A stretch of DNA of 64,000 nucleotides, taken from NCBI GenBank assembly GCA_963924555.1, contig OZ004584.1, positions 6,881,001-6,945,000 of the forward strand, given 5' to 3'. The notes under the pieces were generated by a model. The model was not told where the DNA came from, ran no database searches, and worked only from the letters and a program-made list of their open reading frames with translations. Both the position numbers and the translations under genes were made by a program. Origin of the DNA: Crambe crambe. Taxonomy: Eukaryota; Porifera; Demospongiae; Poecilosclerida; Crambeidae. Positions within the stretch are counted from its first letter, which is position 1. Each line of letters starts with the position of its first letter. This document shows, piece by piece, positions 1-61,278 of the stretch.

Positions 1-2904
1 ATTATGACACCAGCACTTGAATGAGGATCACTGGTATCTAACTGAGCATACTTGACCTGCAAAATTTAAAAGGATAGAGAGGTAGCTGATTTCAGATTGT
101 GGGTACTAAATTTAATTATTTATTTAATTTAATTATTTATTAACTAAATAATTGTATGGCTAGCTATATCCAGTTTATTATTGTCGTTTTTGTTGTTGTT
201 GTTGTTGTTTTTTGTAAATTTTATTATTATTGTGAAATTTTTGACTTGCAGGTACTAAAGTTGATGCCTCTCAAAATTCAGTACCTCTCTTTCATCTGGC
301 ATTGGTTTCTTATTTGGTAATAGTGCACTAGAAAATCTGACGTTCGCTACTTCATTATCAGCAGTTGAAGTTGATTCAGGATCATCAACTGGAGTGGATA
401 AATCCTGCAAAGAAGAAAATTATGTAATAGCTACTCCCATAATTTTTATGATTATTACATGTATCATACCTCATTACTGTGGACTTTGATGATCTGTTCT
501 TCAACAGAAGAATCAGGACTACAACATGTAGAATTTCTTTTCAAAGTGAGCATTGACTCTTCTAGAGGCTGGTAATGTGAAAATAATGTGCGATCAAAAA
601 TTGAAGAAGTAGGGCTGCATACATGTACGTATAAGATAAATCTTGTACCTTTCTCTTGCTATCCAGTGGAGGGTGCACTGGTTTTAGCAATGAATATGTA
701 GCATCAATTCCTGTTGGAAAATCTTGTGAGTGGTGCTGCATTTAGATCGATGAATTGAGCATGATGATATTAAAATAATTATCGTCAAAATACTTAGTTA
801 CTTCGATGATTGAATATGCTATGTCTGGGAAAGAAGTAGGTCCCACTAGAGAGTAATGTGTTGGCTCAATCAGTGTAGGATTACTGCACAAATTCTACAA
901 AAGGATAAATAAAAAATCAATCATCAAACAAAAAACAACTTTGTAGCTAAGTACCGCTTTTTTCATTTCTTTCCTGTGATGTGAGTAGTAGTAAAGTATG
1001 AATGCCAACATCACTATCACAATGCTCATCACAACAGCTATAAAAGTGTGGAAAAATAACATCTATGCTAGCTAGCTAGCTAATAGCTGTAAACCATACC
1101 TATTCCAACAGGCACTGCAATTGCTACCACATCAAGAGAGTTGGTATACTCAGTACTGCTTGTTCCTACCACTAAAAGTAAAAAGAACGTGTCATTAATA
1201 TCATTATTATTACCTGCAGGAATAAACCTGCATGAAGTTAACATGTAAAAAATACAGCGCAGTAATATTTATGTTCAGTTAACTCAATGCTGTGCTACTG
1301 GCTAATTGCCCAGATAAGTTTTTGACTTCGAGAAGTTGATAAGATCAATTTTCAGTGTGAAACGTACATAATGGGATCACATGATCATAACATCTGACAG
1401 TTTGGTATATAATAGTCTGACGTGTATAGCAAACTAGACATCATTCCGCCATTGCAATGCAATTGATTGTTTATTATCACTATCTAATAGCCTTACACTT
1501 TCTCTAAAAGCTATAGTTAAGTCCCTACTCACTTTCACTTGTGTATGTGTTCATTGTCATTATAGTTGGGGGTGGGAGTGTAGTTGGGGGCGGGAATGTA
1601 GTTGGGGTTGGGAGATACACCACTGTAAAATTGCTTGAAATGTTTTCGTATTTCGTTTCAACATGAAGAACATAGTTTACAAATATGTATGAAATGTTGG
1701 GACAATTGCCTGAACCCATGGTAGGATCCTCATCATTGAGAATGAGATATTCAATCCTGTTCAATGCATCAGTGAGATGTGCAGGGGAGCTGCAATGTGT
1801 GTCATCTTCATACTCTATGTGAACTGTCAGCTCTTTGAAGCAGCTTGTTGATGACTGGATTATCTCAGCTGAAATCTGTGACAGTCAATGTAGCTAGCTA
1901 GAAATCTTAGATTGGCTAGATTTTAGCTCCCCATAAGATGAGTGGTCCAGCCATTAGCTATCACATTTTTAAGGTTAGCTATCTGAATTTATTGAAACTC
2001 AAATGGTTGTTTTTACACAACACATGATAATTTCAGTTTGTGAATGGTAACCAATTTATACTAGTTACATAACATACAGCCGTCATCACTCCTGAATCAG
2101 ATAAGTGTACATCTGGATCATAAAGTCCAATGAAATGATCTACATCATTGTGATTACTATGAGATGAGAATTTATTGGTTTAATGGTTACAAACTAACCA
2201 TCATGAAACATTACATCTATAGGATCACTGGGAGCTCCTTGACCAACTACATTCACTGCTGTGATTATGAACTGATACTCCAGCACTGATCCAAGGACTG
2301 AGTTGGTAGACAATATGTATTGAGGAGCTACGATGGAACATTGACCAAGATGGTGAAGTGGAGTCTTCTCTCCCTCAGATACATTGTACACCTCCACACA
2401 GAATGTCATGTCTGGGTCAGTGTTAGTGATGTCCAGGGAGAAGGGAGGTTGCCAAGTCAGGGTGATGAAGGAACAGATAATGGAAACATTCACTTCTTTC
2501 ACTTCATCTAGCAGTCCTATAAGTATCAAAAGTTTAATAATGACTAAGTGATGAGATAATAGTTGCTACTTTCCTTGTATCTGGACAAAGAACACTTCAC
2601 CATAGAGTACTGTGGGATCACTAACATTAAAGAGATTATGTCTTTCACATTGGACTACAGAGTTCAAAAATGTTTCAGTACAGTTCAAATGCAGCATTCG
2701 GTGTTCAAATGTAGTGGTGATTTGAGATCGTTCTTTAATAATATTGTTTAATGAGATATTATTGACTGTCCACATGATTGAATAATCACCTATAGGTTTA
2801 AACTGACAATTGAATTCAGCCACTTGATGTAGGCCACAAATCACTTGTGATGACATGGAACTTTCTGTAGCTAACAATAATAATATCACTACCTTTATTA
2901 TCAT
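1..2904 (-). CDS. Receptor A1: Ig/FN3 transmembrane receptor with ITIM-like tail, 3' end off window
   Basis: Predicted exons, 5' to 3': 2574-2904 (signal peptide + Ig-like), 2199-2516 (FN3), 2078-2139 (linker), 1533-1875 (second beta-sandwich domain and proline/threonine stalk), 1100-1171 and 955-1037 (transmembrane), 802-894, 649-735, 470-568, 285-404 and <1-56 (cytoplasmic). The Ig exon starts with a hydrophobic leader and has the C...W...C pattern; the FN3 exon ends with a conserved AVNVVGQGAPSDP segment. The transmembrane exon reads VIVMLAFILYYY followed by basic residues, so the C-terminus is cytosolic. Tail tyrosines include THYSLV (ITSM-like), IAYSII and VKYAQL (ITIM-like). By analogy with B1 and C1, a death-domain exon should lie just beyond position 1. 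Likely role: surface recognition receptor signalling through SH2 proteins and death-domain adaptors; ligand unknown. Frames are open throughout. Confidence 0.72.
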
Positions 2905-3589
2905 AGTGAATTAGCTACTGTAGGCAACTTGCTTTTATCGAAATTACCATAGCCGCTATCTATGGTTCTTTAGCTATAGCCGGCCCTGTGCGCGCTAATC
3001 CCCCGGCCCCCGGCGCGGGCGAATTATTTATTTATTTATTTATTTATTTTTAGAATATTTTATAGACTCTCCACTGACCTTTGAACCAAGTTGTGCGCAT
3101 GCCCATGGCAATAGTTCGAGTTTGTGAAGCCAGAACCAAGACCCCTGAGCAAATGTATCATAGCAAGAGTGTATGAGAAATAATAAATAAGGTGCAGGAA
3201 AAGAATGAATAAACCTAGAGCAATAAAACTGACAGGAGAGAAACTGAAATTATGTTGGGAGGATCTAGAACTACATGGCTATTCTCCTTGGTACTCGAGA
3301 CCACTATTTCATGGAAATCTGTTCCTTCTCAATGTTTGTTAACATTACAGAAATAACTATCCCATATGCAGCACAGTCCATCAACTCAAATACAAGAAGT
3401 TGCTGAGAAGGGTCCCATGAACTTTCTGGCCATGAAAATTGTTCTTGAAGCCAGCTACATCAAGCAGAGGTCTGAACTTTGCTGACAAGTGTATGTACTC
3501 ATCCTCCTTGGTTTCTATGTAGCTAGAGAACAAACATAGGGATGCAACTCACACATAACTCAGAGCTAGATTTGCTTACCTGAAACTTG
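2905..3589. other. Intergenic segment with GC-rich island, no gene recognised
   Basis: Between the start of A1 and the next pseudogene. It opens with the AT-rich upstream flank of A1, then a short CpG-rich patch at about 2981-3021 (CCCCCGGCCCCCGGCGCGGGC), an ATTT microsatellite and about 500 bp of ordinary sequence with no long open frame. The same segment recurs at about 22916-23580 and 51253-51900, differing mainly in the length of the simple repeat after the GC patch. No coding potential could be supported. Confidence 0.5.
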
Positions 3590-4800: not shown

Positions 4801-7800
4801 TTATATTGAGTACTTTGATTTCAAATTATCAGCCACTTTCATTTCACTGATGTTCTCTAGAGCTTCGATGATACCCTCCAGTTTGTTTCCAGGACGTTCG
4901 AAGTAAAACTCCAATGTGACTTCAAGGCATGTGACATTGCTTTCATTGTTGGTATAAATTTCATCTTCAAGGTCTTCGTCAATTCCAATCTGTTTTGCAA
5001 ACTCACTCCATTTGTCAGCAATGGGAACAAGATCTTCGATGACATCTGCAGCAGTTGAAGGCTTTGGTACAGTTTCTGTAATATTAAATATGAATGAGTA
5101 TACATAGCTAAGTTTTCATAAACATCTGCAGAGTATTCACCCTTCTTTGTAGCTCATAAATAAAGAGTACTGTATAGCTATACCATTAATAATCATACAA
5201 GACTGCAAAGCTCCTTATCTTCCTTTCTTCATTATGGTAGCAATGTATACTTGGCTAGCTACTATAGCCATTACTTTTAGCTTGCTTTGTTGGAATCTGT
5301 GGTGGCACATCAAATTTCAACTTTGAGGGAACTACATCTGAGTAGACCACTTTTTCTGGTGCTATGATCCCAACAATCGGAGATGAACATGAGAGGTTTA
5401 GTTGAGCATATATTACATTCTATAGTATGAATCATTGAATTATCAATAATCAATAAGTCAATATTGCTATACCTCACTGCTCAAAGAATCTTTGGTTGTA
5501 TGACAGACTTTTTCACTGCTAGGTGAAGCATGTGGTACAGGGTCCTCTTGAGTATGCACACTCTGCAAATAAAAATAAAAAGCATAACTAACAATTCAGT
5601 CCCAAAGAGCTACTAGCTACATAAAGCCAAATATTATTGATAACCATGATTGTAATAACAACAGTTTCAATGATACATTTGGCTAAAAAGCACTTTGCTT
5701 CGATCTCCAAGTTATAGGAGCTCTTTTGGTAACATAATCAAGTGGATCAGTGGGTAACTAAATGGACTATGTTGACTTCTGCAGTCACCAGCACCTTCTG
5801 CTTCATGAACTGGATCATATAGAATTTGCAGCTGTGGAAGGGTGGGCAATTTGAATTTGCAAGTAGCTAGCTAGTTCATACAAATCAGCTATCATGAGAA
5901 TTTGATAGCTGTGTACAGTCAGTAGCTACGTAGCCAGTTACGTAGGTCAGGCTGGGGGTGTCACTTGGTTCAGTTAGCTGAATTTCACACTGTAGCTGAT
6001 AGCTGTAGAGCTGTACCTCATTGCCAGTATTTTCATTGAGTACATCTGAGCTTGGAGTATTGGGTCCTCTTGGTAAGATATCATCATACACTGAACATGA
6101 GGTCATACCACTTGATGCCTTCTCTTCAGGTGGATTCTACATAAAAGTATAGTTAAGTTTATAACTTAGCTAGCTATCATCATCATACCATGAAATCTGA
6201 ATATATATTGTCCTGTAATAAGAATAATATTTTCGTGAGTAGCTACATGACTGATGATCACTAATACAATGTACCTCATGGTCGTCATGGAATCGTACTT
6301 GAAATTCGGCTACAGCATAAAGATACATAAGTCCATAACGATTAGCTAGTTATATAATAGTTGGCTATGTAATTTTACCATTATGTTCACTTCGTTTCTT
6401 TCTGTAGTAGTGGTAGAAACCACAGCAAGATAGGATTGTGAAGAGCATGCATACTGGTTGGGTGTAGCTATAGTAAAATGAACTAGCTATAGCCATTTTA
6501 ATTTCTTACCTAAATATACTCCAGCAAATGCTGCAGCAACTGCTGTAATGTTGAGGTTCAGATGTACTTCATCACGGTCTGTTCACAGACTCAGAATAAT
6601 GAATGTTCAATTATAGGTGCCATGCATGTAGGTCATTATATATTATGGGCTGAGACATGACAGAAATTTGGGGGGACGGAGGCTCATTAATGCTGACAAT
6701 TAAGAAGTTATATGACACATTGATTTTATCCATGGTCTATACTTTTTTATTGAGTGCTAGCTAACTAAATTTAGATCTATACCACACAATATGAGGACTA
6801 GCAGAAAGTGACATGGTTAGGGATTTTTACCTGAAGTTGAGGTAATGATTGCAGAGCTAATGCTAGTTGGTTCAAGTTGAGTCATATTTTCACATTTTTC
6901 AGTTGGAAGTTGAGTCATATTTTCACATTTTTCAGTTGGGATAACAAAGAGGTGATTGGACACGAGTCCATAGTCCATGTATTCAATGTATATGGTATAA
7001 TTTGTGGATGGAATAAGACAACCACAGTTGTCACTGTGAAACTCAAATTCAGTGACATTTGTGTTATTTAGTGACCAGCAGCAATTAGTTTCATCATGAT
7101 ATGTTCTGATATGTACAGTAACTCCTGAAGCCAGTGGGTAAGGAGAGGTCTCCTGTGCAAAGAAAGAATAGGGTTAGCCAATAATAATCACAGTTAATCA
7201 TGAAGGGATCTTCTGTGCATGCATTAAGAACAATAGCAACTATAAGAGTTGCTATCAATTAGCTAGGCTATACTTTAAAAGACAAAGCAGGAGACATCTC
7301 TGATTTGGAATAACATGCCATGCAAAAATCGATTTCAGGTTCCACGGATGTTTGGGTTATCTGTGAGTCACAGTGTGCTACATTAGAATAGGATTATGAA
7401 ATAGTTGTTATTCTAAATTCTCTTTTATAAGCACAATTTATTCCCCAAGGAATCTCTAGCTATAGTTACTGTACTCCATTATCAATACTTGCAGCTAATG
7501 CATGGTATCAATAGAACATACTGTAGCTACATTAATTCAGACACATCATGAGACCTATTATCGTTAATTTTTGTTGGCTTAAAGAACTTACTAGTGATAG
7601 ATTTACTGCAATATGAGAGTTGCAAATCTTGACTGTTGCATTGAGAAGATTTTTATTATTACCAAAACCTTGAATTGTTATTATACGTAGTAAACAAAGT
7701 ATGCACCTCGTCTTTTATAACTCACAAGGAAGGAGTGTTGCATTTATGGGTGCACTAGGAGCTCCTAGACCAACTACATTTCTGGCTCTAACGATGAACT

Positions 7801-8451
7801 GATACCGATTCAGGTCACTGATATTCATAGTGTACTGATGTGACTCAGTGCAGTGATCAGCAGAATCATTGAGTTGAATAGTCCCTCTCTTTCTGACTTC
7901 ATATACATCCACGCAGAACGTCATATCTGGGTCAGTGTTGGTGATATCTAGGGAAAAGGGAGGTTGCCAAGTCAGGATGATGGACCAGGAGGTACAGTTG
8001 ATGGAGACTTCTAAGTCTTCAACACTCCCTAGTAATCCTGTGTGGGGTAATATAATTATGATTTACTAGATAAACTTGTATACTTTCCTTGTATGCGAAG
8101 AGTATGCAAATTACCAAAAGCAGTCAAGGAGAGAAGACCAAATCTAACACACTGAACTAGTGAGTTATTCAGTGAAGCACTGCAGTATAGTAATAGTAAA
8201 GGAGGTCTTGATGATGAGTTTGACCTGGCTCCTTCAACACTGGTAGAGGAGACATTGTTGATTTTCCATTCAAAGCCATAAAAGCCTCTATGGTTCCCTG
8301 GTGGTGGTGGTGCTAAGAAACATCTGAATTCAATCGTTTGATTCAGACCACAGACAGCCTCATCACTTGAGAATGAGATAATTCGTCCTATGAGCTGAAT
8401 CACCGCTGTAGCTAAAATAATGCTAAACTTCTTGCTACTACTTCCTGACAT
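4801..8451 (-). CDS. Receptor A2: Ig/FN3 receptor with ITIM-like tail and C-terminal death domain
   Basis: Exons: 8088-8451 (signal peptide + Ig; an upstream in-frame Met at 8475 is possible, the second Met gives the cleaner leader), 7726-8037 (FN3), 7592-7668, 6831-7152 (second extracellular domain), 6510-6578 and 6379-6453 (transmembrane), 6275-6309, 6189-6212, 6017-6136, about 5760-5831, 5473-5562, 5275-5419, and the death-domain exon 4801-5075. The membrane exon reads VCMLFTILSCCGFYHYYRKK. Tail motifs of ITIM form: SVYDDI, ILYDPV, VIYAQL and VVYSDV. The last exon carries the death-domain core ADKWSEFAKQIGID...DEIYTNNES...KSKYSI and stop. The exon at about 5760-5831 has no clearly in-phase GT donor, so its left edge is uncertain. 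Likely a plasma-membrane receptor combining SH2-type and death-domain signalling. Confidence 0.74.
6862..6942. repeat. 33-bp tandem duplication inside the A2 stalk exon
   Basis: The unit ending in TTTTCACATTTTTCAGTTGG is present twice head to tail, adding 11 residues (a second TEKCENMTQLP unit) just outside the membrane. The equivalent exons of B2 (27952-28240) and C2 (55154-55442) have one unit. The duplication keeps the reading frame. Confidence 0.8.
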
Positions 8452-8761: not shown

Positions 8762-10067
8762 TTAATGGCAGTACTTTCTATGTAAATAATTTGCCACCTC
8801 AAATTCTTCCATACTTTTCAAAATGTCGATAATGTCAGCCAAGGTCTGAGAGCGAAGTAATTCAATGGTGACCTTTAGGCATGCTTTATTTTTATTAGTA
8901 TGGTCTCCAGTGAATTCAAGGACACTCCCCACGTCAATTCCCATTTTTCCAGCAAACTCCCTCCACTTGCAAGCAATAGGGGAAAGATCATGGAAGAACT
9001 CTCAGACTGGTGAGCTGTTATGACAGTATAGCTAGCTAGCTGATAGCTAATAAAAATAGCTGGATTATCATTTTACCTTGTTTCCATTGGGAATCTTTAG
9101 GGATGACATTTAAGTAAATTGCTTCGTTAGCTGATGGCATCCTAATTTTTAGTGTAATAATTCTTGAAAGCATATATGTATCACCTGGATACCCTTTAGC
9201 TATTTAATGAATTTGATTCAGCTATCATGTACCAAAGATATATTAAGCTCCAATTAAGTAGTTGTATGTGCCCGGCACTAAGAAGAATCCATGAATAATA
9301 TGATAACAGCTACATAGTCAGCTATGTAGTTTTATTACCATCATAAAATTCTACATTCCTTGGATCACTAGGAGCCCCTCGACCTACTACATTCACTGCT
9401 GTGACTATGAACTGATAGTGAAGCATCAGTCCAGAGTTGTTGGTAGGTATTGTGTAGTGAGGAGTCACAATAGAGCATCGTCCAAGGTGATGAAATGGAG
9501 TCCTCTCTCCCTCAGATACATTATACACCTCCACACAGAATATCATGTCTGGGTCAGTGTCAGTGATGTCCAGGGAGAAGGGAGGCTGCCAAGTCAGGGT
9601 GATGGAGGAACAGTTAATGGAAACATTCACTTCCCTCACTTGATCTAATAGCCCTGTTAGTAGTAATAGGTAGCTAAGATAATAATGACAAATAAACAAG
9701 AACAACTAAGAACAATAGCTATATAATACAGCTGCTTTCCTTGTGTCTGAACATGGAAAACATCACCAGGAACATTAGGTTCACTTAGATCAAGAATATG
9801 AATTCCTTCACACTGAACTGTGGAGTTATCTAATTCTTCAGTACAGTTCAGAGAGAGAATTCGACCATCTGGTGTTTTATCACTTCCACTATATATCTCA
9901 TCATTGATGGTCCATATTATGTTGGTATCAGTCAGTTGTGTGAAGTCCAAGGAACATTCAAATTCAGCTCGTTGATGTAGACCACAAGTTATCACTGACA
10001 CACCCTGCACTGCTTCATAACTAAAAATGACCAGAAGATAGATCACAACAAATCTAGTATGTCTCAT
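8762..10067 (-). pseudogene. Truncated receptor A3 (Ig + FN3 intact, membrane region deleted)
   Basis: The signal-peptide/Ig exon 9740-10067 and FN3 exon 9339-9653 are open and match D2. The linker exon near 9230-9290 has lost its AG acceptor (the usual TCAG reads TCAT) and is 1 nt short relative to C3. Just downstream the start of the second beta-sandwich exon (ICFQELL) runs straight into a tail-like sequence (ANEAIYLNV) with an in-frame stop, so the rest of that domain, the membrane exons and most of the tail are deleted. A death-domain exon remains at 8762-8998 (FFHDLSPIACKWREFAGKMGID) ending YCH-stop. Best read as a pseudogene; a secreted Ig-FN3 fragment is an alternative. Confidence 0.6.
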
Positions 10068-10649: not shown

Positions 10650-12749
10650 TCAATGCTCTTCCTCAAATGGAACCACATTTGAGTAAAATGTTGCAGGTCC
10701 AACTATTTCAACTCTCGGAGTTAAAGGAGGAATCTCAGCATAAACTGGCTATAATAATTATGTGGAAACATGAGAGACAAAGTTCTAAGAAAGTTCAATT
10801 AGCTAATAGTCACCATCACCTCTACTTTATCAACACCTTTAGTGACGGCATATGCACTGTTTTCTTGAATGTGTATTTCTGGGTCATTTTGTCTGTCTTT
10901 GGCAGTGGTTATCACTTCAGAATATCTCTTAGGCTATTAAGGATAATGAATTCATCATGAAGTATGACAACACTTTATTAAGATATGCGCTTTTTTTCTG
11001 AAATAGACCTTATCAAAAAGGAAGATCAGTGATTGTCACTCTGAGGTTACAATTTCAACGTTCTTCATCAATAGTATAGCCATACCTCTTCTCTTTGAGC
11101 ATCCTTAAGCTTGATAACTGTGTACGCACTGTTTTCATGAGTTCGTATCTCAAGGTTTATTACTTCACCAGAAGATTTCTGGCCATGATTCCTGCCTACA
11201 TGTTATAGAATTAACGTGAGAGTGTTATAACAGAATCCTCATGATAGCTATTATGATAGCAACTATCAATTTATGGCAATCACTAACTGTCTAAGGAAGT
11301 ATTATAATAGTTACCATTTTTCACATGATGTAACCAATAGCAACAGCAAAATGTTGATAGCAGTAGAATGATGCTCATCACTGCATGGAAAGGTAACAAA
11401 TTAATAACAGTGAGCAACAAGATTATGTAATAATATTTACCAACACCCACAGATACTGCAAGTACCACATTCAAATGCTCGAAAGAAGAAGAGTCTACAC
11501 ATGAGTGGTAAGTAAGTTGCAATAACTATCATAGCATCATAGCATAACAGCTGCTTACCAACTGTTGAAAAGATTTTTTGTGTTGTCATATTAGTTGGGT
11601 TGCTTGCACTTGGGAAGTACATTACAAAGATAACATTAGATAAACTTCCATCATTAGTTTCCACATAAACAGTGTAGTTGTTCACAGATGCATTGAAACA
11701 TCTGCTACAGTTATTCTCATCACTGTTCAAAATGAGGTACTGTAACTGATTCGATGTAACTTGTGCTGGGCAGCTGCAGTGTGTGTTGTCATCATTGTAG
11801 TCAAAGTGAATAGTAAATTCTTGAAAGCATACAGATGTTACCTGAATAATAACCATTATTAAAGACATCAATTATCACGATCACATACCAAAGATATATT
11901 CAGCTCCAATTCAGAATTAAACAGTTGTTGTATTTCTCCCTCAAAAATGAATATTCCTGAATTAATTTAGCAATCATAATACCAGCTAGAAGCTATTGTA
12001 GGTACCCATTAGTTTCATTACCATCATAAAATTCTACATTCCTTGGATCACTAGGAGCCCCTCGACCTACTACATTCACTGCTGTGACTATGAACTGATA
12101 GTGAAGCATCAGTCCAGAGTTGTTGGTAGGTATTGTGTAGTGAGGAGTCACAATGGAGCATCGTCCAAGGTGGTGAAGTGGAGTCCTCTCTCCCTCCGAT
12201 ACATTGTACACCTCCACACAGAATGTCATGTCTGGGTCAGTGTCAGTGATGTCCAGGGAGAAGGGAGGCTGCCAAGTTAGGGTGATGGAGGAACAGTTGA
12301 TGGAGACTCTCAGATCACTAACTCTTTCTAGGAATCCTGTATTGCATAATTAATAGCTACATATGTCATACAGATTATATAAACTATAATAACTATAGCT
12401 ACTTTCCTTGTATGCGAAGATTAAAGGGATTTCCATATAAATCAGTCGAGCTTATTCTACCAAATCTAACACACTGGACTAATGAATTATTACGTCCAGC
12501 ACTGCAGTATAGATGAAGTAAACTGTTTGCAGATCTATCTATCATATCTCCATCCACTCCATCTTCTAAGGTGGCATTGTTGAGACTCCAATCAGTGAAT
12601 ATATGTATAGCAGAGTATGGTGTTATACATTTGAACTCAGCTGTTCCATTTAGACCACATACCACCTCTGAGGTAACTTGTCCTGAAATGAATAATCCAA
12701 ACTGCAACAGAGAAATAGAGGCAATGAAAACCACTCTACTTCTTGACAT
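10650..12749 (-). CDS. Receptor D1: short-tail Ig/FN3 receptor with tyrosine motifs
   Basis: Exons: 12407-12749 (signal peptide + Ig, start MSRSRVVFIASIS), 12022-12336 (FN3), 11889-11956 (linker, 68 nt), 11559-11841 (second domain, VTSVCFQEFTIHF), 11441-11494 and 11315-11380 (transmembrane, IILLLSTFCCCYWLHH), 11086-11195, 10820-10927 and terminal 10650-10748. All exon phases agree (1-1, 1-0, 0-1, 1-1, 1-0, 0-0). Tail motifs are SAYTVI (fits ITIM), SAYAVT, VYAEI and TFYSNV (fits ITSM). The last exon aligns with the penultimate exon of the death-type receptors but reads through to a stop (PFEEEH), so no death domain is encoded. It lies head-to-tail with A3 downstream and D2 upstream. Function inferred: surface recognition receptor signalling by tyrosine phosphorylation. 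Confidence 0.74.
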
Positions 12750-13134: not shown

Positions 13135-13165
<31 letters not shown>

Positions 13166-25582: not shown

Positions 25583-25898
25583 TAACCTATAGGTTTAAAC
25601 TGACAATTGAATTCAGCCACTTGATGTAGGCCACAAATCACTTGTGACGGCATAGTAACTAATAATAGTAATACCACTATCTTTATCATCATAGTAAACT
25701 AGCTACTGTAAGCAACTTGCTTTTAATGATACTGCAGCAAAGGCGATAAAAATTATAAGCTACTCGCCTATGTCACGTGGCCGCGTGAGAGCGTGGGGGT
25801 GGGGCTGGGCCAGGTACTGTTATATGCATAATAATGGCTAGCTAACTAACACCATACTGACTGTGTCTGGATGCATTATATTATTATTGGTCAGCTTA

Positions 25899-43375: not shown

Positions 43376-43418
43376 TAGTACTGTATTATTGCTGGTGGTC
43401 AAATTGGTAAGTTCCCTG

Positions 43419-43444: not shown

Positions 43445-43474
43445 AACTTCAGATCATACATGCACTCTATACTG

Positions 43475-44177
43475 CCCCTTGACCTAGTACATTCACTGCT
43501 ATGAACTGATAGTGAAGCATCAGTCCAGAGTTGTTGGTAGGTATTGTGTAGTGAGGAGTCACAATGGAGCATCGTCCAAGGTGGTGAAGTGGAGTCCTCT
43601 CTCCCTCAGATACGTTGTACACCTCCACACAGAATGTCATGTCTGGGTCATTGTTAGGAATGTCCAGGGAGAAGGGAGGCTGCCAAGTCAGAGTGATGGA
43701 AGAACAGTTGATGGATACACTCACTTCCCTCACTTGATCTAATAGCCCTGTTAGCAGCCAAGACAACAATAACAAATAAACAAGAACTATACAACCACAA
43801 CAACGGACAATAGCTATATAATACAGCTGCTTTCCTTGTATCTGAACATAGAAAGCATCACCAGGAACATTTGGTACACTTGGATCAGTAACATGAACTT
43901 CTTCACACTGAACTGTGGAGTTATCTAATTCTTCAGTACAGTTCAGAGAGAGAATTCGGGTGTCTCGCATTCCAACAATTCCTTCATAAATCTCATTATT
44001 GATTGTCCATGTTATGATGGTTCCTGTGAGTGGCATGAAGTCCAAGGTACATTCAAATTCAGCTCGTTGATGTAGGCCACAAATTATCACTGATACACCC
44101 TGCACTGTTTCATCACTAAAAAGGACCAGAAGTATATATATAGCTCTAGTATATCTCATCCTCCTTGTGATCAGCAC
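43475..44177 (-). pseudogene. Receptor fragment E5: Ig and partial FN3 only
   Basis: Ig exon 43835-44177 (leader plus VIICGLHQRAEFEC) and FN3 exon with right edge 43747 are open. FN3 is cut after VLGQGAV, where sequence jumps to intergenic DNA; its last about 12 residues, linker, second domain, membrane and tail are absent. The 87-bp intron between the two exons happens to be open, giving a 236-residue frame. Near-identical to the 5' half of E2. A product could only be a short secreted or tail-anchored fragment; pseudogene is the simpler reading. Confidence 0.65.
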
Positions 44178-47532: not shown

Positions 47533-50500
47533 CTACACCGATTCTGATACTTGGGAATATTTTTTTGATAAAGTGCATGCCAACTCATGCTCCTCTATAT
47601 GACATAAAGCAGCAGTGATTTCTTTGAAGGGAGCTCTTCTCTTGAAGAAGTACTCCAAGGTCTCCTGCAAACATGCCTCATTGCTTTCATTGTTAGTGTA
47701 AATCTCATCCTCAAGATCCTCATCAATTCCTATCTTCAGTGCGAATTCACTCCACTTTCCAGCAATGGAATGTAGATCATGAAACAAATCTTCTGCAGTC
47801 ATGGGTGGCTTTACTAAAGGTGTGAAGAAAGTCAACAGATATAATTTTCAGCCACTCCATACTGAATCCAGTAACCTCGTAGCTAAATTTGGGTGCTAAG
47901 ACAGTTAAATCATTGAACATGTGGACTGATATTCTTTGTTGTTCACTGTAATGAAAACATGGGATTCTACTGCTTTGCAATCTTGGTAGCTATATATAAG
48001 GAGTGCTTGGGAAAAGGTACGTACAAGTTGTAAAAATCCTGCTAAAGTTTATAAATAGCTAGCTACTTAATAATCATGAAACCTAAAACTTTGAAGCTGA
48101 AATTATTGATTTTAGTTCCATTTGAAGCAAAAATAATAGCTAATTGGATACCAATTACATCTCTAAAACTTGTTTTTGCTCCCAATTGTATACAGTAGCT
48201 AAGGTCCTATAACACACCTGCTGGTTTTGGTTGTGCTTTCATCTCCTCTTTTTCCTTTGGTATTAATATTCCTGTGAATGGGACTATGTCTGAGTAAATG
48301 ACGTCGTTCACTATTATGACACCAGCACTTGAATTAGGATCACTGGTATCTAACTGAGCATACTTGACCTGCAAAATTTAAAAGGATAGAGAGGTAGCTG
48401 ATTTCAGATTGTGGGTACTAAATTTAATCATTTATTTAATTTAATTATTTATTAACTAAATAATTGTATGGCTAGCTATATCCAGTTTATTATTGTCGTT
48501 TTTGTTGTTGTTGTTGTTGTTTGTAAATTTTATTATTATTGTGAAATTTTTGACTTGCAGGTACTAAAGTTGATGCCTCTCAAAATTCCCGAATATTAAG
48601 TACCTCTCTTTCATCTGGCATTGGTTTCTTATTTGGTAATGGTGCACTAGAAAATCTGATGTTCGCTACTTCATTATCAGCAGTTGAAGTAGATTCAGGA
48701 TCATCAACTGGAGTGGATAAATCCTGCTAAAAAGATAATTATGTAATAGCTACTCCCATAATTTTTATGATTATTACATGTATCATACCTCATTACTGTG
48801 GACTTTGATGATCTGTTCTTCAACAGAAGAATCAGGACTACAATATGTAGAATTTCTTTTCAAAGTGAGCATTGACTCTTCTAGAGGCTGGTAATGTGAA
48901 AATTATGTGCAATCAAAAATTGAAGAAGTAGGGCTGCATACATGTGCGTATAAGATAAATCTTGTACCTTTCCATCGCTATCCAGTGGAGGGTGCACTGG
49001 TTTTAGCAATGAATATGTAGCATCAATTCCTGTTGGAAAATCTTGTGAGTGGTGCTGAATTTAGATCGATGAATTGAGTATGATGATATTAAGATAATTA
49101 TTATCAAAATACTTAGTTACTTCGATGGTTGAATATGCTATGTCTGGGGAAGAAGTAGGTCCCACTAGAGAGTAATATGTTGGCTCACTCAGTGTAGGAT
49201 TACTGCACAAATTCTACAAAAGGAAAAAATAACGAATAAAAAATCAATCATCAAACAAAAAATAACTTTGTAAATACCGCTTTTTTCATTTCTTTCCTGT
49301 GATGTGAGTGTAAAGTATGAATGCCAACATCACTATCACAATGCTCATCACAACAGCTATAAAAATGTGGAAAAATAACATCTATGCTAGTTAGCTAATA
49401 GCTGTAAATCATACCTATTCCAACAGGTACTGCAATTGCTACCACACCAAGAGAGTTGGTATACTCAGTACTGCTTGTTCCTACCACTAAAAGTAAAAAG
49501 AATGTGTCATTAATATCATTATTATTACCTGCAGGAATAAACCTGCATGAAGTTAACATGTAAAAAATACAGCGCAGTAATATTTATGTTCAGTTAACTC
49601 AATGCTGTGCTACTGGCTAATTGCCCAGATAAGTTTTTGACTTCGAGAAGTTGATAAGATCAATTTTCAGTGTGAAACGTACATAATGGGATCACATGAT
49701 CATAACATCTGACAGCTTGGTATAACAGTCTGATGTGTATAGCAAACTAGACATCATGCAGCCATTGCAATGCAAATTGTTTATTATCACTATCTAATAG
49801 TCTTACACTTTCTCTAAAAGCTCTATAGTTAAGTCCCTACTCACTTTCACTTGTGTATGTGTTCATTGTCATTATAGTTGGGGGTGGGAGTGTAGTTGGG
49901 GGCGGGAGTGTAGTTGGGGGCGGGAGTGTAGTTGGGGGCGGGAATGTAGTTGGGGTTGGGAGATACACCACTGTAAAATTGCTTGAAATGTTTTCGTATT
50001 TCGTTTCAACATGAAGAACATAGTTTACAAATATGTATGAAATGTTGGGACAATTGCCTGAACCCATGGTAGGATCCTCATCATTGAGAATGAGATATTC
50101 AATCCTGTTCAATGCATCAGTGAGATGTGCAGGGGAGCTGCAATGTGTGTCATCTTCATACTCTATGTGAACTGTCAGCTCTTTGAAGCAGCTTGTTGAT
50201 GACTGGATTATCTCAGCTGAAATCTGTGACAGTCAATGTAGCTAGCTAGAAATCTTAGATTGGCTAGATTTTAGCTCCCCATAAGATGAGTGGTCCAGCC
50301 ATTAGCTATCACATTTTTAAGGTTAGCTATCTGAGTTTATTGAAACTCAAATGGTTGTTTTTACACAACACATGATAATTTCAGTTTGTGAATGGTAACC
50401 AATTTATACTAGTTACATAACATACAGCCATCATCACTCCTGAATCAGATAAGTGTACATCTGGATCATAAAGTCCAATGAAATGATCTACATCATTGTG

Positions 50501-51252
50501 ATTACTATGAGATGAGAATTTATTGGTTTAATGGTTACAAACTAACCATCATGAAACATTACATCTATAGGATCACTGGGAGCTCCTCGACCAACTACAT
50601 TCACTGCTGTGATTATGAACTGATACTCCAGCACTGATCCAAGGACTGAGTTGGTAGACAATATGTATTGAGGAGCTACGATGGAACATTGACCAAGATG
50701 GTGAAGTGGAGTCTTCTCTCCCTCAGATACATTGTACACCTCCACACAGAATGTCATGTCTGGGTCAGTGTTAGTGATGTCCAGGGAGAAGGGAGGTTGC
50801 CAAGTCAGGGTGATGAAGGAACAGATAATGGAAACATTCACTTCTTTCACTTCATCTAGCAGTCCTATAAGTATCAAAAGTTTAATAATGACTAAGTGAT
50901 GAGATAATAGTTGCTACTTTCCTTGTATCTGGACAAAGAACACTTCACCATAGAGTACTGTGGGATCACTAACATTAAAGAGATTATGTCTTTCACATTG
51001 GACTACAGAGTTCAAAAATGTTTCAGTACAGTTCAAATGCAGCATTCGGTGTTCAAATGTAGTGGTGATTTGAGATCGTTCTTTAATAATATTGTTTAAT
51101 GAGATATTATTGACTGTCCACATGATTGAATAATCACCTATAGGTTTAAACTGACAATTGAATTCAGCCACTTGATGTAGGCCACAAATCACTTGTGATG
51201 ACATGGAACTTTCTGTAGCTAACAATAATAATATCACTACCTTTATTATCAT
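47533..51252 (-). CDS. Receptor C1: Ig/FN3 receptor with ITIM/ITSM-like tail and death domain
   Basis: Third copy of A1/B1, complete. Exons: 50922-51252, 50547-50864, 50426-50487, 49845-50223, 49415-49486, 49278-49356, 49121-49213, 48968-49054, 48789-48887, 48604-48723, 48218-48368 and death domain 47533-about 47813. The stalk in exon 4 has four PPTTLP-type repeats against two in A1 and B1 (see repeat entry), and the penultimate exon is 9 nt longer than in B1. Motifs TYYSLV, IAYSII, VKYAQL and VIYSDI are conserved; the protein ends SESV-stop. The transmembrane-proximal exon 49278-49356 is 79 nt against 83 in A1/B1 because one AGTAGT unit is shorter (GTGAGTGTAAAG), which would shift frame; confirm against reads or RNA. 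Confidence 0.72.
49876..49954. repeat. Proline/threonine stalk minisatellite in C1
   Basis: An 18-bp unit (GGGAGTGTAGTTGGGGGC form on the plus strand) occurs about four times, encoding PPTTLP on the minus strand. A1 (1568-1610) and B1 (21579-21621) have two units. The repeat lies between the second extracellular domain and the membrane, so it sets stalk length. Whole units keep frame. Confidence 0.85.
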
Positions 51253-53130: not shown

Positions 53131-56100
53131 TTATATTGAGTACTTTGATTTCAAATTATCAGCCACTTTCATTTCACTGATGTTCTCTAGAGCTTCGATG
53201 ATACCCTCCAGTTTGTTTCCAGGACGTTCGAAGTAAAACTCCAATGTGACTTCAAGGCATGTGACATTGCTTTCATTGTTGGTATAAATTTCATCTTCAA
53301 GGTCTTCGTCAATTCCAATCTGTTTCGCAAACTCACTCCATTTGTCAGCAATGGGAACAAGATCTTCGATAACATCTGCAGCAGTTGAAGGCTTTGGTAC
53401 AGTTTCTGTAATATTAAATATGAATGAGCATACATAGCTAAGTTTTCATAAACATCTGCAGAGTATTCACCCCTCTTTGTAGCTCATAAATAAAGAGTAC
53501 TGTATAGCTATACCATTAATAATCATACAAGACTGCAAAGCTCCTTATCTTCCTTTCTTCATTATGGTAGCAATGTATACTTGGCTAGCTACTAGCCATT
53601 ACTTTTAGCTTGCTTTGTTGGAATCTGTGGTGGCACATCAAGTTTCAACTTTGAGGGAACTACATCCGAGTAGACCACTTTTTCTGGTGCTATGATCCCA
53701 ACAATCGGAGATGAACATGAGAGGTTTAGTTGAGCATATATTACATTCTATAGTATGAATCATTGAATTATCAATAATCAATGAGTCAATATTGCTATAC
53801 CTCACTGCTCAAAGAATCTTTGGTTGTATGACAGACTTTTTCACTGCTAGGTGAAGCATGTGGTACAGGGTCCTCTTGAGTATGCACACTCTGCAAATAA
53901 AAATAAAAAGCATAACTAACAATTCAGTCCCAAAGAGCTACGAGCTACATAAAGCCAAATATTATTGATAACCATGATTGTAATAACAACAGTTTCAATG
54001 ATACATTTGGCTAAAAAGCACTTTGCTTCGATCTCCAAGTTATAGGAGCTCTTTTGGTAACATAATCAAGTGGATCAGTGGGTAACTAAATGGACTATGT
54101 TGACTTCTGCAGTCACCAGCACCTTCTGCTTCATGAACTGGATCATATAGAATTTGCAGCTGTGGAAGGGTGGGCAATTTGAATTTGCAAGTAGCTAGCT
54201 AGTTCATACAAATCAGCTATCATGAGAATTTGATAGCTGTGTACAGTCAGTAGCTACGTAGCTAGTTAGGTCAGGCTGGGGGCGTCACTTGGTTCAGTTA
54301 GCTGAATTTCACACTGTAGCTGATAGCTGTAGAGCTGTACCTCATTGCCAGTATTTTCATTGAGTACATCTGAGCTTGGAGTATTGGGTCTTCTTGGTAA
54401 GATATCATCATACACTGAACATGAGGTCATACCACTTGATGCCTTCTCTTCAGGTGGATTCTACATATATATATAAGTTTATTATAGCTATAACTTGGCT
54501 AGCTATCATCATCATACCATGAAATCTGAGTATATATTGTCCTGTAATAGTAATAATATTTTCGTGAGTAGCTACATGACTGATGATCACTAATACAATG
54601 TACCTCATGGTCGTCATGGAATCGTACTTGAGATTCGGCTACAGCATAAAGATACATAAGTGCATAACGATTAGCTAGTTATATAATAGTTGGCTATGTA
54701 ATTTTACCATTATGTTCACTTCGTTTCTTTCTGTAGTAGTGGTAGAAACCACAGCAAGATAGGATTGTGAAGAGCATGCATACTGGTTGAGTGTAGCTAT
54801 AGTAAAATGAAATAGCTATAGCCATTTTAACTCCTTACCTAAATATAGAAATGCTGCAGCAACTGCTGAGACGTTGAGGTTCAGATGTACTTCATCACGG
54901 TCTGTTCACAGACTCAGAATAATGAATGTTCAATTATAGGTGCCATGCATGTAGGTCATTATATATTATGGGCTGAGACATGACAGAAATTTGGGGGGAC
55001 GGAGGCTCATTAATGCTGACAATTAAGAAGTTATATGACACATTGATTTTATCCATGGTCTATACTTTTTTATTGAGTGCTAGCTAACTAAATTTAGATC
55101 TATACCACACAATATGAGGACTAGCAGAAAGTGACATAATTAGGGATTTTTACCTGAAGTTGACGTAATGATTGCAGAGCAAATGCTAGTTGGTTCAAGT
55201 TGAGTCATATTTTCACATTTTACAGTTAGAATAACAAAGAGGTGATTGGACACGAGTCCATAGTCCATGTATTCAATGTATATGGTATAATTTGTGGATG
55301 GAATAAGACAACCACAGTTGTCACTATGAAACTCAAATTCAGTGACATTTGTGTTATTTAGTGACCAGCAGCAATTAGTTTCATCATGATATGTTCTGAT
55401 ATGTACAGTAACTCCTGAGGCCAGTGGGTAAGGAGAAGTCTCCTGTGCAAAGAAAGAATAGGGTTAGCCAATAATAATCACAGTTAATCATGAAGGGATC
55501 TTCTGTGCATGCATTAAGAACAATAGCAACTATAAGAGTTGCTGTCAATTAGCTAGGCTATACTTTAAAAAACAAAGCAGGAGACATCTCTGATTTGGAA
55601 TAACATGCCATGCAAAAATCGATTTCAGGTTCCACGGATGTTTGGGTTATCTGTGAGTCGCAGTTTGCTACATTAGAATAGGATTATGAAATAGTTGTTA
55701 TTCTAAATTCTCTTTTATAAGCACTCCCCAAGGAATCTCTAGCTATAGTTACTGTACTCCATTATCAATACTTGCAGCTAATGCATGGTATCAATAATAA
55801 CCATTAGAACATACTGTAGCTACATTAATTCAGACACATCATGAGACCTATTATCGTTAATTTTTGTTGGCTTTTAAAGAACTTACTAGTGATAGATTTA
55901 CTGCAATATGAGAGTTGCAAATCTTGACTGTTGCATTGAGAAGATTTTTATTATTACCAAAACCTTGAATTGTTATTATACGTAGTAAACAAAGTATGCA
56001 CCTCGTCTTTTATAACTCACAAGGAAGGAGTGTTGCATTTATGGGTGCACTAGGAGCTCCTAGACCAACTACATTTTTGGCTCTAACGATGAACTGATAC

Positions 56101-56755
56101 CGATTCAGGTCACTGATATTCATAGTGTACTGATGTGACTCAGTGCAGTGATCAGCAGAATCATTGAGTTGAATAGTCCCTCTCTTTCTGACTTCATATA
56201 CATCCACGCAGAACGTCATATCTGGGTCAGTGTTGGTGATATCTAGGGAAAAGGGAGGTTGCCAAGTCAGGATGATGGACCAGGAGGTACAGTTGATGGA
56301 GACTTCTAAGTCTTCAACACTCCCTAGTAATCCTGTGTGGGATAATATAATTATGATTTACTAGCTAAACTTGTATACTTTCCTTGTATGCGAAGAGTAT
56401 GTAAATCATCAAAAGAAGAAGATTCAGGTGAGGAGACAAGACTAGCTCTAACACACTGAACTAGTGAGTTATTCAGTGAAACACTGCAGTATAGTAATAG
56501 TAAAGGAGGTCTTGATGATGAGTTTGACCTGGCTCCTTCAACACTGATAGAGGAGACATTGTTGATTTTCCATTCAAAGCCATAAAAGCCTCTATGGTTC
56601 CCTGGTGGCGGTGGTGCTAAGAAACATCTGAATTCAATCGTTTGATTCAGACCACAGACAGCCTCATCACTTGAGAATGAGGTAATTCGTCCTATGAGCT
56701 GAATCACCGCTGTAGCTAAAATAATGCTAAACTTCTTGCTACTACTTCCTGACAT
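53131..56755 (-). CDS. Receptor C2: Ig/FN3 receptor with ITIM-like tail and death domain
   Basis: Third copy of A2. Exons: 56383-56755 (signal peptide + Ig; upstream Met at 56779), 56021-56332 (FN3), 55887-55963, 55154-55442, membrane exons about 54837-54900 and 54710-54784, tail exons between 53595 and 54650, death-domain exon 53131-53405. The death domain is intact, unlike B2 (GAG TTT GCG at the site of the B2 stop). The first membrane exon is 6 nt shorter than in A2, in frame. The Ig exon ends with a different loop (SSPESSSFDDLHTLRIQG) and has no GT upstream of the GA site. Motifs SVYDDI, ILYDPV, VIYAQL and VVYSDV are conserved. Confidence 0.73.
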
Positions 56756-57600
56756 TGTTAAATGAACCATACTGCACATGTGCTAAAAGTAATGATCTTC
56801 ATACCAGCTGAATAGAGTCTGAGTTTCTTTGCCCACAACCTGACTAATTATAATTATGGCAGTATCTATAACTGTTATGCACTTGACTTACTTTAATTGT
56901 GGATAATTTCCCTTCAGAACGATAATTATTATAAACATGTTTATTCTTTGTGATAAAGGTCAAATGGTCAAATAGCTAATTATGGAAATAACTGAGTCAG
57001 GACATTGTACACACTGAAATTGAAAATTTAATGGCAGTACTTTCTATGTAAATAATTTGCCACATCAAATTCTTCCATACTTTTCAAAGTCTTGATAATG
57101 TCAGCCAAGCTCTGAGAGCGAAGTAATTCAATGGTGACCTTTAGGCATGCTTTATTTTTATTAGTAGGGTCTCCAGTGAATTCAAGGACACTCCCCACGT
57201 CAATTCCCATTTTTCCAGCAAACTCCCTCCACTTGCAAGCAATAGGGGAAAGATCATGGAAGAACTCTCAGACTGGTGAGCTGTTATGACAGTATAGCTA
57301 GCTAGCTGATAGCTAATAAAAATAGCTGGATTATCATTTTACCTTGTTTCCATTGGGAATCTTTAGGGATGACATTTAAGTAAATTGCTTCGTTAGCTGA
57401 TGGCATCCTAATTTTTGGTGTAATAATTCTTGAAAGCATATATGTATCACCTGGATACCCTTTAGCTAATTAATGAATTTGATTCAGTACCAAAGATATA
57501 TTCAATTTGGAATTAAGTAGTTGTATGTGCCCTGCACTAAGAAGAATCCATGAATAATATCATCACAATAACAGCTACATAGTCAGCTATGTAGTTTTAT

Positions 57601-57800
57601 GTAATATTTAGTTCACTCTTTTCTAGCTCTAAGTGTTTTAATGCACCTGCATGAGAATGATGCTATAATGCTTGAGGTGAATGTAATGCACGAGCCGAAG
57701 GCGAGTGCATTAGCTACATCACCGAGAGCATTATAGCATCATTCGAGTGCACCATGCATTAAAACACATGGAGCTAGAATAGAGTGATCTAAACATTTTA
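57601..57800. mobile_element. Foldback element A in C3
   Basis: About 57609-57698 and 57705-57795 are inverted, imperfect copies (TTTAGTTCACTCTTTTCTAG ... AGAATAGAGTGATCTAAA), with matching GATGCTATAATGC and GCATTATAGCATC further in. No coding capacity. Block A has uninterrupted sequence here (about 9335). Confidence 0.75.
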
Positions 57801-58217
57801 GTGCTGATCACATGACTTGTGACCAATCAAATTCCAGTTGGTCCTTACACAACCCTAGCCCTAGTACCTAGCAAGCTCTGACATACTTTGGTTCAGTAAG
57901 AATGCTCTAATTTAATGATATTAAAAAAAATAAACGAGGTAAATTCCTGAGGTTTTCCTGTTTGAAACCCAATGTAATAAGTGAAATGCTAAAGTCTATA
58001 AAAGAAAATATTAAGACAGGTACTTACTGTAAGCACTATATAGGGACTGAGGCTGGAAGGTCGTAGTCCTAGTGGATCTTCCACTAGGCTCCTATGTACC
58101 TTCAGCACAGTTCCCCAAGTGTGCACTAAACATTTAGTGCACATAAAAGTGTGCTTTATGAGATTTAAAGTACACTTTTCAGAGGATCTGATTGGTCACA
58201 AGTCATGTGACCAGCAC
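57801..58217. mobile_element. Inverted-repeat element B in C3
   Basis: Ends TAGTGCTGATCACATGACTT and its near-complement AAGTCATGTGACCAGCACTA, arms about 37 bp. The interior carries further short palindromes (GTGCACTAAACATTTAGTGCAC near 58119-58143) and no protein frame. It abuts element A; both are absent from block A, so they may be one nested unit. Confidence 0.75.
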
Positions 58218-58955
58218 TAATACCATCATAAAATTTCTACATTCCTTGGATCACTAGGAGCCCCTTGACCTACTACATTCACTGCTGTGACTATGAACTG
58301 ATAGTGAAGCATCAGTCCAGAGTTGTTGGTAGGTATTGTGTAGTGAGGAGTCACAATGGAGCATCGTCCAAGGTGATGAAATGGAGTCCTCTCTCCCTCA
58401 GATATGTTGTATACCTCCACACAGAATGTCATGTCTGGGTCAGTGTTAGTGATAGGGAGAAGGGAGGCTGCCACATCATGATGATGGAGGAACAGTTGGT
58501 GATAAAATTCACTTCCCCCACTTGATCTAATAGCCCTGTTAGTAGTAATAGGTAGCTAGCTTAAACAACAATAACAAATAAATAATAACAACCACAACAA
58601 CAAGAACTAAGAATGATGATAGCTAGCTATAACTAGACAGCTGCTTCCTTGTGTCTGAACATAGAAAAACATCACCAGGAACATCATTAGATCAAGAACA
58701 TGAAATCCTTCACACTGAACTGTGGAATTTTCTAATTCTTCAGTTCAGTTCAGATAGGGAATTTGACCATCTGGTGTTTTATCACTTCCACTATATGTCA
58801 TTATTGATGGTCCATATTATGTTGGTATCAGTCAGTTGTGTGAAGTCCAAGGAACATTCAAATTCAGCTCGTTGATGTAGACCACAAGTTATCACTGACA
58901 TACCCTGCACTGCTTCATAACTAAAAATGACCAGAAGATAGATCACAACAAGTCT

Positions 58956-59576: not shown

Positions 59577-61278
59577 TTATTGTTGAGCTCTCAATGCTTC
59601 CTCCTCTTTTCCCTCAAATGGAACCACATTTGGGTAAAATGTTGCATCAGGTCCAACTATTTTAACTCTCGGAGTTAAAGGAGGAATCTCAGCATAAACT
59701 GGCTATAATAGATACATGAGAGACAACGTTCTAAGAAAGTTCAGTTAGCTAATAGTCACCATCACCTCTGCTTTATCAACATCTTTAGTGACGGCATATG
59801 CACTATTTTCTTGAATGTGTATTTCTGGGTCATTTAGTCTGTCTTTGGCAGTGGTTATCACTTCAGAAGATCTTTTAGGCTATTAAGGATAATGAATTCA
59901 TCATGAAGTATGACACACTATTTAAAATGAACTTTTTTCTGGAATAGACCAAAAAGGAAGACAGTGATTGTTACTCTGAGGCTATACAGTTTCAATGTTC
60001 TTCATCAATAGTATAGCCATACCTCTTCTCTTTGAGCATCCTTAAGCTTGATAACTGTGTACGCACTGTTTTCATGAGTTCGTATCTCAAGGTTTATTAC
60101 TTCACCAGATGATTTCTGGCCATGGTTCCTGCCTACATGTTATAGAATTAATGTGAGAGTGTTATAACAGAATCCTCATGATAGTTATTATGAGAGAAAC
60201 TATCAATTTATGGCAATCACTAACTGTCTAAAGAAGTATTATAATATGTAGTTACCACTTTTCACATGATGTAACCAATAGCAACAGCAAAATGTTGATA
60301 GCAGTAGAATGATACTCATCACTGCATGGAGAGGTGACAAATTAATAACAGTGAGCAACAAGATTAAGTAATAATATTTACCAACACCCACAGATACTGC
60401 AATTACCACCTTGAAAGAAGAAGAGTCTACACATTATAGTGGTAAGTAAGTTGCAATAACTATATCATAGCATCATGGTATAACAGCTGCTTAGCTACCA
60501 ACTGTTGAAAAGCTTTTTTGTGTTATCATATAATTAGTTGGGTTGCTTTCACTTGGAAAGTACATCACAAGAATAACATTAGATGAACTTCCACCATCAG
60601 TTTCCACATAAACAGTTAAGTGTAGTTGTTCACAGATGCATTGAAACATCTGCTACAGTTATTCTCATCATTGTTCAGAATGAGGTACTGTAACTGATTT
60701 AAGCCAACTGAGCAGTTGCAATGAGTGCTATTGTCATAGCTAATGTGAACAGTTAATTCTTGGAAGCATGCAGACGTCACCTGCAAGAGAATGAGTAGCT
60801 AGCATTTTAACTCTTTAGTTTTTAAACATATACCAAAGATATATTCAGCTCCAATTCTGAATTAAATTGTTGTTGTATTTGACCCGCACTAAGGAATATC
60901 CCTGAATAAAATTATAACAGTTAGTCACCTACATAATTATGTAGTACCCATTAGTTTCATTACCATCATAAAATTCTACATTCCTTGGATCACTAGGAGC
61001 CCCTTGACCTACTACATTCACTGCTGTGACTATGAACTGATAGTGAAGCATCAGTCCAGAGTTGTTGGTAGGTATTGTGTAGTGAAGAGTCACAATGGAG
61101 CATCGTCCAAGGTGGTGAAGTGGAGTCCTCTCTTTCTCAGATACATTGTACACCTCCATACAGAATGTCATGTCTGGGTCAGTGTTAGGGAGGTCCAGGG
61201 AGAAGGGAGGTTGCCAAGTCAGGGTGATGGAGGAACAATTAGTGGAGATGTTGACTTCCTTAACTGCATCTAATATCC
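59577..61278 (-). pseudogene. Short-tail receptor F1, broken and missing its 5' exons in this window
   Basis: FN3 about 60963-61278 (class of D2, open), linker about 60832-60902, second domain about 60505-60780, membrane exons about 60382-60427 and 60258-60325, tail about 60022-60131 and 59765-59873, terminal 59577-59701. The second-domain exon has a 5-nt insertion (AACAGTTAAGTGTAG against AACAGTGTAG) that puts a stop after NNYT. The first membrane exon has lost about 13 nt. The last exon reads on to a longer end (EEEALRAQQ-stop). Upstream, where the Ig exon is expected, lies the foldback/LTR element, so the 5' end is beyond the right edge or lost. Confidence 0.68.

Follow-up and report, generated by a model that had tools for sequence, protein, structure and literature searches.

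We found that a 64,000-nucleotide stretch of the genome of the demosponge Crambe crambe (the window; C6:6881001-6945000 of an assembly of 143,139,886 bp in 119 contigs) carries a tandem array of genes combining immunoglobulin (Ig) and FN3 domains with tyrosine-rich tails. We put at roughly 0.6 the probability that they belong to a large family of type I membrane receptors working like a paired-receptor system. An initial annotation, made from the letters alone, had surmised a sponge origin, which the source confirms. Using exon homology and spliced modelling, we recovered 15 near-complete receptor units together with relics from the window, every one on the minus strand (Table 1), in agreement with the at least 14 complete or nearly complete units plus relics, all on one strand, initially proposed. 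Nine of the 15 are open from end to end, with a hydrophobic N-terminus and a transmembrane (TM) segment. The modelling covered 17 units, namely the 15 near-complete ones and two relics, with the relics U9 and U18 and three fragments left outside it.

The open units share one layout: behind the signal peptide come Ig, FN3 and another beta-rich domain (D3), then one TM helix and a tail bearing Tyr-x-x-Ile/Leu/Val (Yxx[ILV]) motifs. They comprise 9-12 exons each, and all their joins are GT-AG and phase-consistent, with the exception of the Ig-to-FN3 join. Class A (U1, U7 and U16) features Ig, FN3, D3, two TM exons and five tail exons followed by a death domain, DDb. Class D (U2, U8 and U17) follows the class-A plan with its own sequence, its tails showing the patterns SVYDDI, VIYAQL and VVYSDV and its death domain being DDa. 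Class C (U4-U6, U10-U13, U15 and U19) encompasses four Ig types and has three tail exons without a death domain, the last of which carries FYSNVV or a close variant in most units. Some first-round models were unreliable in detail, with non-homologous sites at the U12 TM and the U16 D3 end, frame-broken output for U15 and U19, and GC donors picked in U8, U11, U12 and U15; seven C units were remodelled allowing GT donors only. A direct join of FN3 to D3 in the C units is ruled out by phase, and a small linking exon fits.

The fold match of the Ig model displays the beta-sandwich, paired cysteines and core tryptophan of the Ig superfamily, and both fn3 and Death were matched by Pfam. The DDa exon passes the Pfam Death model with 27.1 bits (cut-off 22.6; E=4.8e-6) and scores 22.4 bits, slightly under that cut-off, within the full U2 protein. 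DDb and DDc show 58% and 38-43% identity to one another across the cluster, as matched by a DDb query. By sequence, the C-type model had no match in the PDB; DDa had four weak ones, of which the sole death-domain match is TNFR1 (E 0.69). These Pfam matches and the open models bear out the Ig, FN3, tyrosine and death-domain architecture of the initial annotation, with D3 as a caveat, and both of its tail types are present in the window: tyrosine motifs alone (C) and tyrosine motifs plus a death domain (A and D).

The median ratio of non-synonymous to synonymous divergence (dN/dS) stays under 1 for each of the five segments analysed. It is 0.64 for Ig (80/91 pairs usable), in a set of 14 exons that omits U7, its Ig exon being the prototype that U1 and U16 match at 100%, as well as the disrupted U6, U9 and U18, and is thereby biased toward intact copies. 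The corresponding values are 0.43 for FN3 (102/105), 0.41 for D3 (31/78), 0.47 for the C tail (27/28) and 0.40 for the death domain (8/21).

The tails were scored by shuffle tests for tyrosines in a Yxx-hydrophobic context and for strict immunoreceptor tyrosine-based inhibitory motifs (ITIMs), which, like the related switch motif (ITSM), have a generally known consensus pattern. The tail of U1 is cut at the window edge. In the class-A tail of U7, all six tyrosines lie in a Yxx-hydrophobic context, a count reached by none of 5000 shuffles, and three form strict ITIM patterns (P 0.004). The class-D tail of U2 has four of its six tyrosines in this context (P 0.019) and likewise three strict ITIMs (P 0.003). 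Among the nine C tails, seven have three of four tyrosines (four of five in U4) so placed (P 0.01-0.04). ITIM-like motifs, as expected of paired receptors, are hence present in the tails.

Two exchange points were found along these genes, one at the Ig/FN3 border and the other at the D3/TM border. In 13 of the 15 pairs among six C units, the synonymous divergence (dS) of the Ig exon is 0.91-1.76 against 0.04-0.35 in FN3, D3 and tail; the two exceptions, U4-U12 and U10-U13, share an Ig type and have low dS throughout. For instance, U12 and U15 differ by 1.13 in Ig versus 0.10, 0.06 and 0.06 in FN3, D3 and tail, and U5 and U13 by 0.91 versus 0.22, 0.06 and 0.04. Thus, with dS near saturation on low-dS bodies, the Ig exon behaves as a cassette swapped onto similar bodies.

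The second exchange point is seen outside the window, in four genes judged from their open key exons. Loci L054 and L057 are 96.5% identical along 1,124 nt that run from the Ig exon almost as far as the D3 end, with no other match of at least 60 nt at E<=1e-5: the L054 tail is A-like with DDb, and that of L057 is a C-like ITIM tail with DDc. Locus L056 harbors a head-to-head gene pair with 88.6% identity over 1,201 columns, again with one DDc and one DDb tail. Tail parts with DDc, from L057 and the minus-strand L056 gene, show matches of 77% and 90%, and those with DDb, from L054 and the plus-strand L056 gene, of 72% and 86%, which makes a two-by-two tail exchange at the D3/TM border. These two pairs display the near-identical ectodomains on different tails that characterize paired receptors. 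The initial annotation had placed shared ectodomains on alternative tails in the window itself; this stands for L054/L057 and the L056 pair and fails for the intact window genes, in which each class of ectodomain, A, D or C, stays with its own tail. Within the window, a C-type FN3 lies next to a death domain only in the relics U3, U9 and U18. In each of the two swaps, both tails combine tyrosine motifs with a death domain; the contrast therefore cannot be reduced to death domain present versus absent.

A genome survey for further clusters, which the initial annotation had proposed, placed the window as a slice of a cluster of about 750 kb (C6:6.586-7.340 Mb) with at least 101 FN3 units, 93 on the minus and 8 on the plus strand; this lower bound takes in 101 of 150 FN3 matches and omits two short fragments (7056316 and 7038462). 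Genome-wide, the FN3 exon query gave at least 150 matches (150 of 202 candidates scored), the Ig-exon query 101 and the death-domain query 61. With classes assigned by identity to one query, and with death domains counted within 5 kb downstream and before the next FN3 (54 of the 61 matches used; six outside the interval and one fragment omitted), 46 of the 101 units have a death domain: 14/20 A, 13/61 C and 19/20 D. The FN3 matches of C6:6836149-6863558 recur some 100-101 kb away, at 6937034-6963837, a spacing suggestive of a large segmental duplication that takes in the right end of the window. Relatives of the FN3 exon, from close to distant, lie at C6:4.69, 5.01-5.15, 5.66-5.71 and 7.72-7.90 Mb, C13:1.63-1.90 Mb and C10:3.71-3.74 Mb, some with Ig exons; they form a wider superfamily.

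The Ig-to-FN3 join features an unusual donor. Of the 19 FN3 exons in the window, all but that of U19 are closely preceded by an Ig exon, and all 18 of these Ig exons end CAAG|GA, 17 of them as CAAG|GAAAG and that of the relic U18 as CAAG|GAAGC. The site is the consensus GTAAG with a T-to-A change at +2, and the 9-base donor motif has no occurrence on the plus strand. Across 30 FN3 loci, six of them in the window, CAAG|GAAAG is present in all 29 that are readable (L028 lacks the region); it also recurs in L040 and L054-L057, and one L039 copy has CAAG|GAATTA. Exceptions with GT donors are the two extra Ig exons that lie upstream of U6 and of U15, and one in L039. Distant relatives have their donor at the same Gln codon, as GT for three Ig exons and as GC for another. 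A join through a GT or GC donor at GGAAA|GY has the wrong phase and is followed by a stop. GA-AG splicing at CAAG|GA is the only frame-keeping junction found, and it falls at the codon used by the donors of the distant relatives. While 15 of the 18 window Ig exons are open (U6, U9 and U18 are broken), only 5% of Ig frames would stay open under random drift at 0.3 changes per site; together with the median dN/dS of 0.64, this indicates constraint on most Ig exons and makes splicing at the GA site probable. No dedicated GA-reading U1 snRNA was found among the 41 of 2690 candidates scored, and all three U1 genes found have a canonical 5' end. GA donors are described as exceedingly rare, except in some species and in FGFR1-3 (PMC5714493; PMC7072748). 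As described there, the GA-AG introns of FGFR1-3, Eurytemora affinis and Oikopleura dioica resemble the present ones in having AG before the GA donor and an AG acceptor (PMC5714493; PMC7072748); unlike those, the Crambe crambe GA occupies a single fixed junction throughout a gene family. The family-wide, putatively spliced GA-AG intron is a separate oddity of splicing.

Candidate decoders for both kinds of tail signal are present in the genome. At C18:6.539-6.541 Mb, SH2, SH2 and PTP domains are ordered on one strand, an arrangement shared with the SHP phosphatases. At C9:1.486-1.491 Mb (locus L052, C9:1485501-1491500), a set made up of a Death exon and then an SH2 exon occurs in two tandem copies; the plus strand at C9:1.487-1.614 Mb has ten SH2 matches, which suggests a larger family. 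Paired SH2 exons cluster at C5:1.41-1.52 Mb, where a 328-aa Kelch frame adjoins one pair (locus L053, C5:1470501-1475500). The combination of SH2 with death-fold domains has been described in Amphimedon TRADD-N architectures (PMC8195603).

On the reading we favor, the variable Ig cassette would be the likely ligand-binding tip on a nearly constant stalk of FN3 and D3. If the genes are expressed, phosphorylation of the ITIM/ITSM-like tyrosines would bring in SH2 proteins, the tandem-SH2 phosphatase among the candidates, and the death domain ending many tails would recruit death-domain adaptors. Recombination at the Ig/FN3 and D3/TM borders gives one body a choice of tips and links a given tip to different tails; we propose that one ligand could thereby drive different outputs, possibly of differing polarity. 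On this reading, the family would serve recognition, and possibly immunity. A bolder version appears improbable to us: a sponge self/non-self recognition complex in which Ig cassettes shuffle on a constant stalk, exchanged tails let a given tip drive opposite decisions, a built-in GA-AG splice switch just behind the cassette determines whether the receptor has its Ig tip, and dedicated death-domain/SH2 adaptors unite the phosphotyrosine and death-domain outputs.

Several observations weigh against a paired-receptor family. Six of the 15 units are lesioned or doubtful, and dN/dS exceeds 1 in two Ig and two C-tail pairs. The tails of U11 and U15 have two of four tyrosines in context, no significant excess, and no C tail has more than one strict ITIM (P 0.15-0.24 in those that have one). 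Taken singly, the DDb and DDc exons score below the Pfam Death cut-off (14.2 and 14.7 bits), and the Pfam matches of the full-length U7 protein at E<=1 do not include DDb. D3 was placed in no domain family by its predicted model (predicted local distance difference test score, pLDDT, 52) or by profile comparison; its assignment as a second FN3 is unproven, the comparison against distant copies giving a probability of 0.1%. The decoders are seen in the genome sequence, their binding to the receptor tails and the joins between their death-domain and SH2 exons being putative. The protein database returned no homologue for the C-type model, in a collection possibly poor in sponge protein, and none for the A-type model among the 8000 best candidates, so the exon joins have no independent homologue support.

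The joins are read from genomic sequence, and with several lesioned units and relics and an Ig-FN3 join requiring a non-canonical GA donor, the Ig/FN3 and tail exons could be separate genes, the units being juxtaposed fragments of a decaying array. We regard this as very improbable: nine units maintain uninterrupted frames with matching phases across all their exons, each of the five segments has a median dN/dS below 1, and the Ig donor shares its codon with the GT/GC donors of distant relatives. Another view, unlikely to a lesser degree, is that these are adhesion or guidance receptors of the Robo/Sidekick/UNC5 type, with tyrosine motifs for endocytosis or scaffold binding, expanded by ordinary tandem duplication and lacking an immune-like output. 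Sidekick, Sema4D, Robo and UNC5H2 are among the best matches of the Ig model; nevertheless, TREM2, CEACAM1 and T-cell receptor domains matched as well, and Ig fold matches cannot separate adhesion from immunity. Yxx[ILV] doubles as an endocytosis signal, fitting AP2 sorting, and this too counts against the paired-receptor reading. The UNC5 netrin receptors join an Ig ectodomain to a cytoplasmic death domain; they also have TSP1 and ZU5 domains, which are absent from the Pfam matches at E<=1 in U7, U2 and U4. Moreover, a 101-unit cluster exchanging both tips and tails is atypical of guidance receptors.

Table 1. Receptor units, relics and selected exons, in window coordinates
Feature	Position	Strand	Description
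U1	1..2904	-	A-type; extends past left window edge; death-domain exon C6:6880217-6880495
U2	4801..8451	-	D-type, 12 exons, 635 aa; Tyr tail and death domain DDa (exon 5075-4801)
U3	8774..10067	-	Relic: C-type Ig and FN3, then DDc (9001-8774); D3, TM not found
U4	10650..12749	-	C-type, 9 exons, 483 aa; Tyr tail, without death domain
U5	13587..15830	-	C-type, open
U6	16391..18498	-	C-type; signal-peptide exon separate; Ig exon disrupted
Extra Ig exon upstream of U6	18616..18892	-	Canonical GT donor
U7	19217..22915	-	A-type, 11 exons, 653 aa; ITIM-like tail and DDb (19497-19217)
U7 signal peptide and Ig exon	22585..22915	-	Donor CAAG|GAAAGT
U7 FN3 exon	22210..22527	-	
U7 D3 exon	21544..21879	-	Second ectodomain
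U7 TM exons	20972..21184	-	Two: 21184-21113, 21054-20972
U7 tail exons	19910..20907	-	Five, with Yxx[ILV] motifs
Ig and D3 relic fragments	24059..25692	-	Comparable relics: 4594-4039, 52924-52384
U8	25902..29729	-	D-type; death-domain exon with in-frame stop
U9	30153..30938	-	Relic: Ig, FN3 fragment, DDc
U10	31900..34152	-	C-type, open; signal-peptide exon separate
U11	35201..37272	-	C-type; C-terminal part degenerate
U12	37795..39891	-	C-type, open
U13	40723..42930	-	C-type, open; shares near-identical D3 and tail with U5, Ig cassette different
U14	43448..44159	-	Relic: Ig and truncated FN3
U15	44673..46799	-	C-type; signal-peptide exon out of frame as read
Second extra Ig exon copy, upstream of U15	47140-46877	-	GT donor
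U16	47533..51252	-	A-type; TM exon 2 frameshifted; death-domain exon open
U17	53131..56755	-	D-type, 625 aa; death domain DDa
U18	57040..58858	-	Relic: Ig, FN3, DDc; donor CAAG|GAAGC
U19	59577..61269	-	C-type; Ig exon not found

Beside U19, at 61580-63640 on the minus strand, lies a 686-aa open frame that by eye resembles part of a retroelement gag-pol. At 24498-24812 of the window, about 315 bases match their own reverse complement at 94.6%, the sole inverted match of more than 200 bases detected. No Rfam family was found in the window at gathering thresholds.

Among known systems, the vertebrate LILR, KIR and SIRP receptors likewise place similar ectodomains on different signalling tails, with ITIM motifs and clustered genes; they differ in that they are not known to carry death domains and in the use of ITAM (immunoreceptor tyrosine-based activation motif) adaptors by activating members. 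The Botryllus FcoR proteins are described as Ig superfamily type I receptors that share a single locus and whose tails bear ITIM, hemITAM or core Yxx[ILV] motifs; alternative splicing can replace one motif with the other (PMC12065747). They belong to an ascidian and have an Ig-sushi-Ig-Ig ectodomain, with no FN3 or death domain mentioned in the text available (PMC12065747). The present models have one Ig, one fn3 and D3 in place of the V-type Ig, sushi and two C2-type Ig domains of FcoR, with no sushi at E<=1 in U7, U2 and U4. Hydractinia has at least 41 Alr-like Ig superfamily loci in one region, over half of them in three clusters (PMC11067881), and ITAM/ITIM motifs are described for Alr (PMC12065747); by description, no FN3 or death-domain tail is mentioned there. 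This shared logic of clustered Ig superfamily type I receptors, ITIM/Yxx[ILV] tails and cassette diversity (PMC12065747; PMC11067881) makes it conceivable that the sponge family is the counterpart of Alr and FcoR in allorecognition. We hold this narrower form of the paired-receptor reading only tentatively, as an analogy with FcoR and Alr; aggregation factors, a sponge candidate family in print (a title cited in PMC12065747), weigh against it.

Among sponge genes, one from Dysidea avara with Ig domains and a CARD, up-regulated after microbial stimuli, also joins Ig to a death-fold domain (PMC6208332), providing a precedent for this combination. By its description, it has CARD rather than Death, with FN3, a tyrosine tail and a gene family unmentioned (PMC6208332). 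Sponge Ig-TIR proteins are similarly Ig superfamily membrane receptors with an intracellular immune signalling domain, that being TIR in place of the tyrosine and death-domain tail in the accounts available (PMC6208332; PMC12909245); U7, U2 and U4 have no cytoplasmic TIR at E<=1. The initial annotation knew of no described family with this architecture, and we too found no Ig-FN3-TM-tyrosine-death-domain family in the titles and opening abstract lines of the literature covered, which takes in few subscription journals, so that a description in print is possible.

The ascidian and cnidarian allorecognition receptors with ITIM/ITAM tails are described as unrelated and as converging on the same signalling pathways (PMC12065747). 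If our reading is correct, finding the same receptor logic in a sponge would widen its range to an early-branching animal phylum and bring in a death-domain branch of the output. Sponge recognition would thereby gain named loci: one chromosome interval with defined cassettes, tails and candidate decoders.

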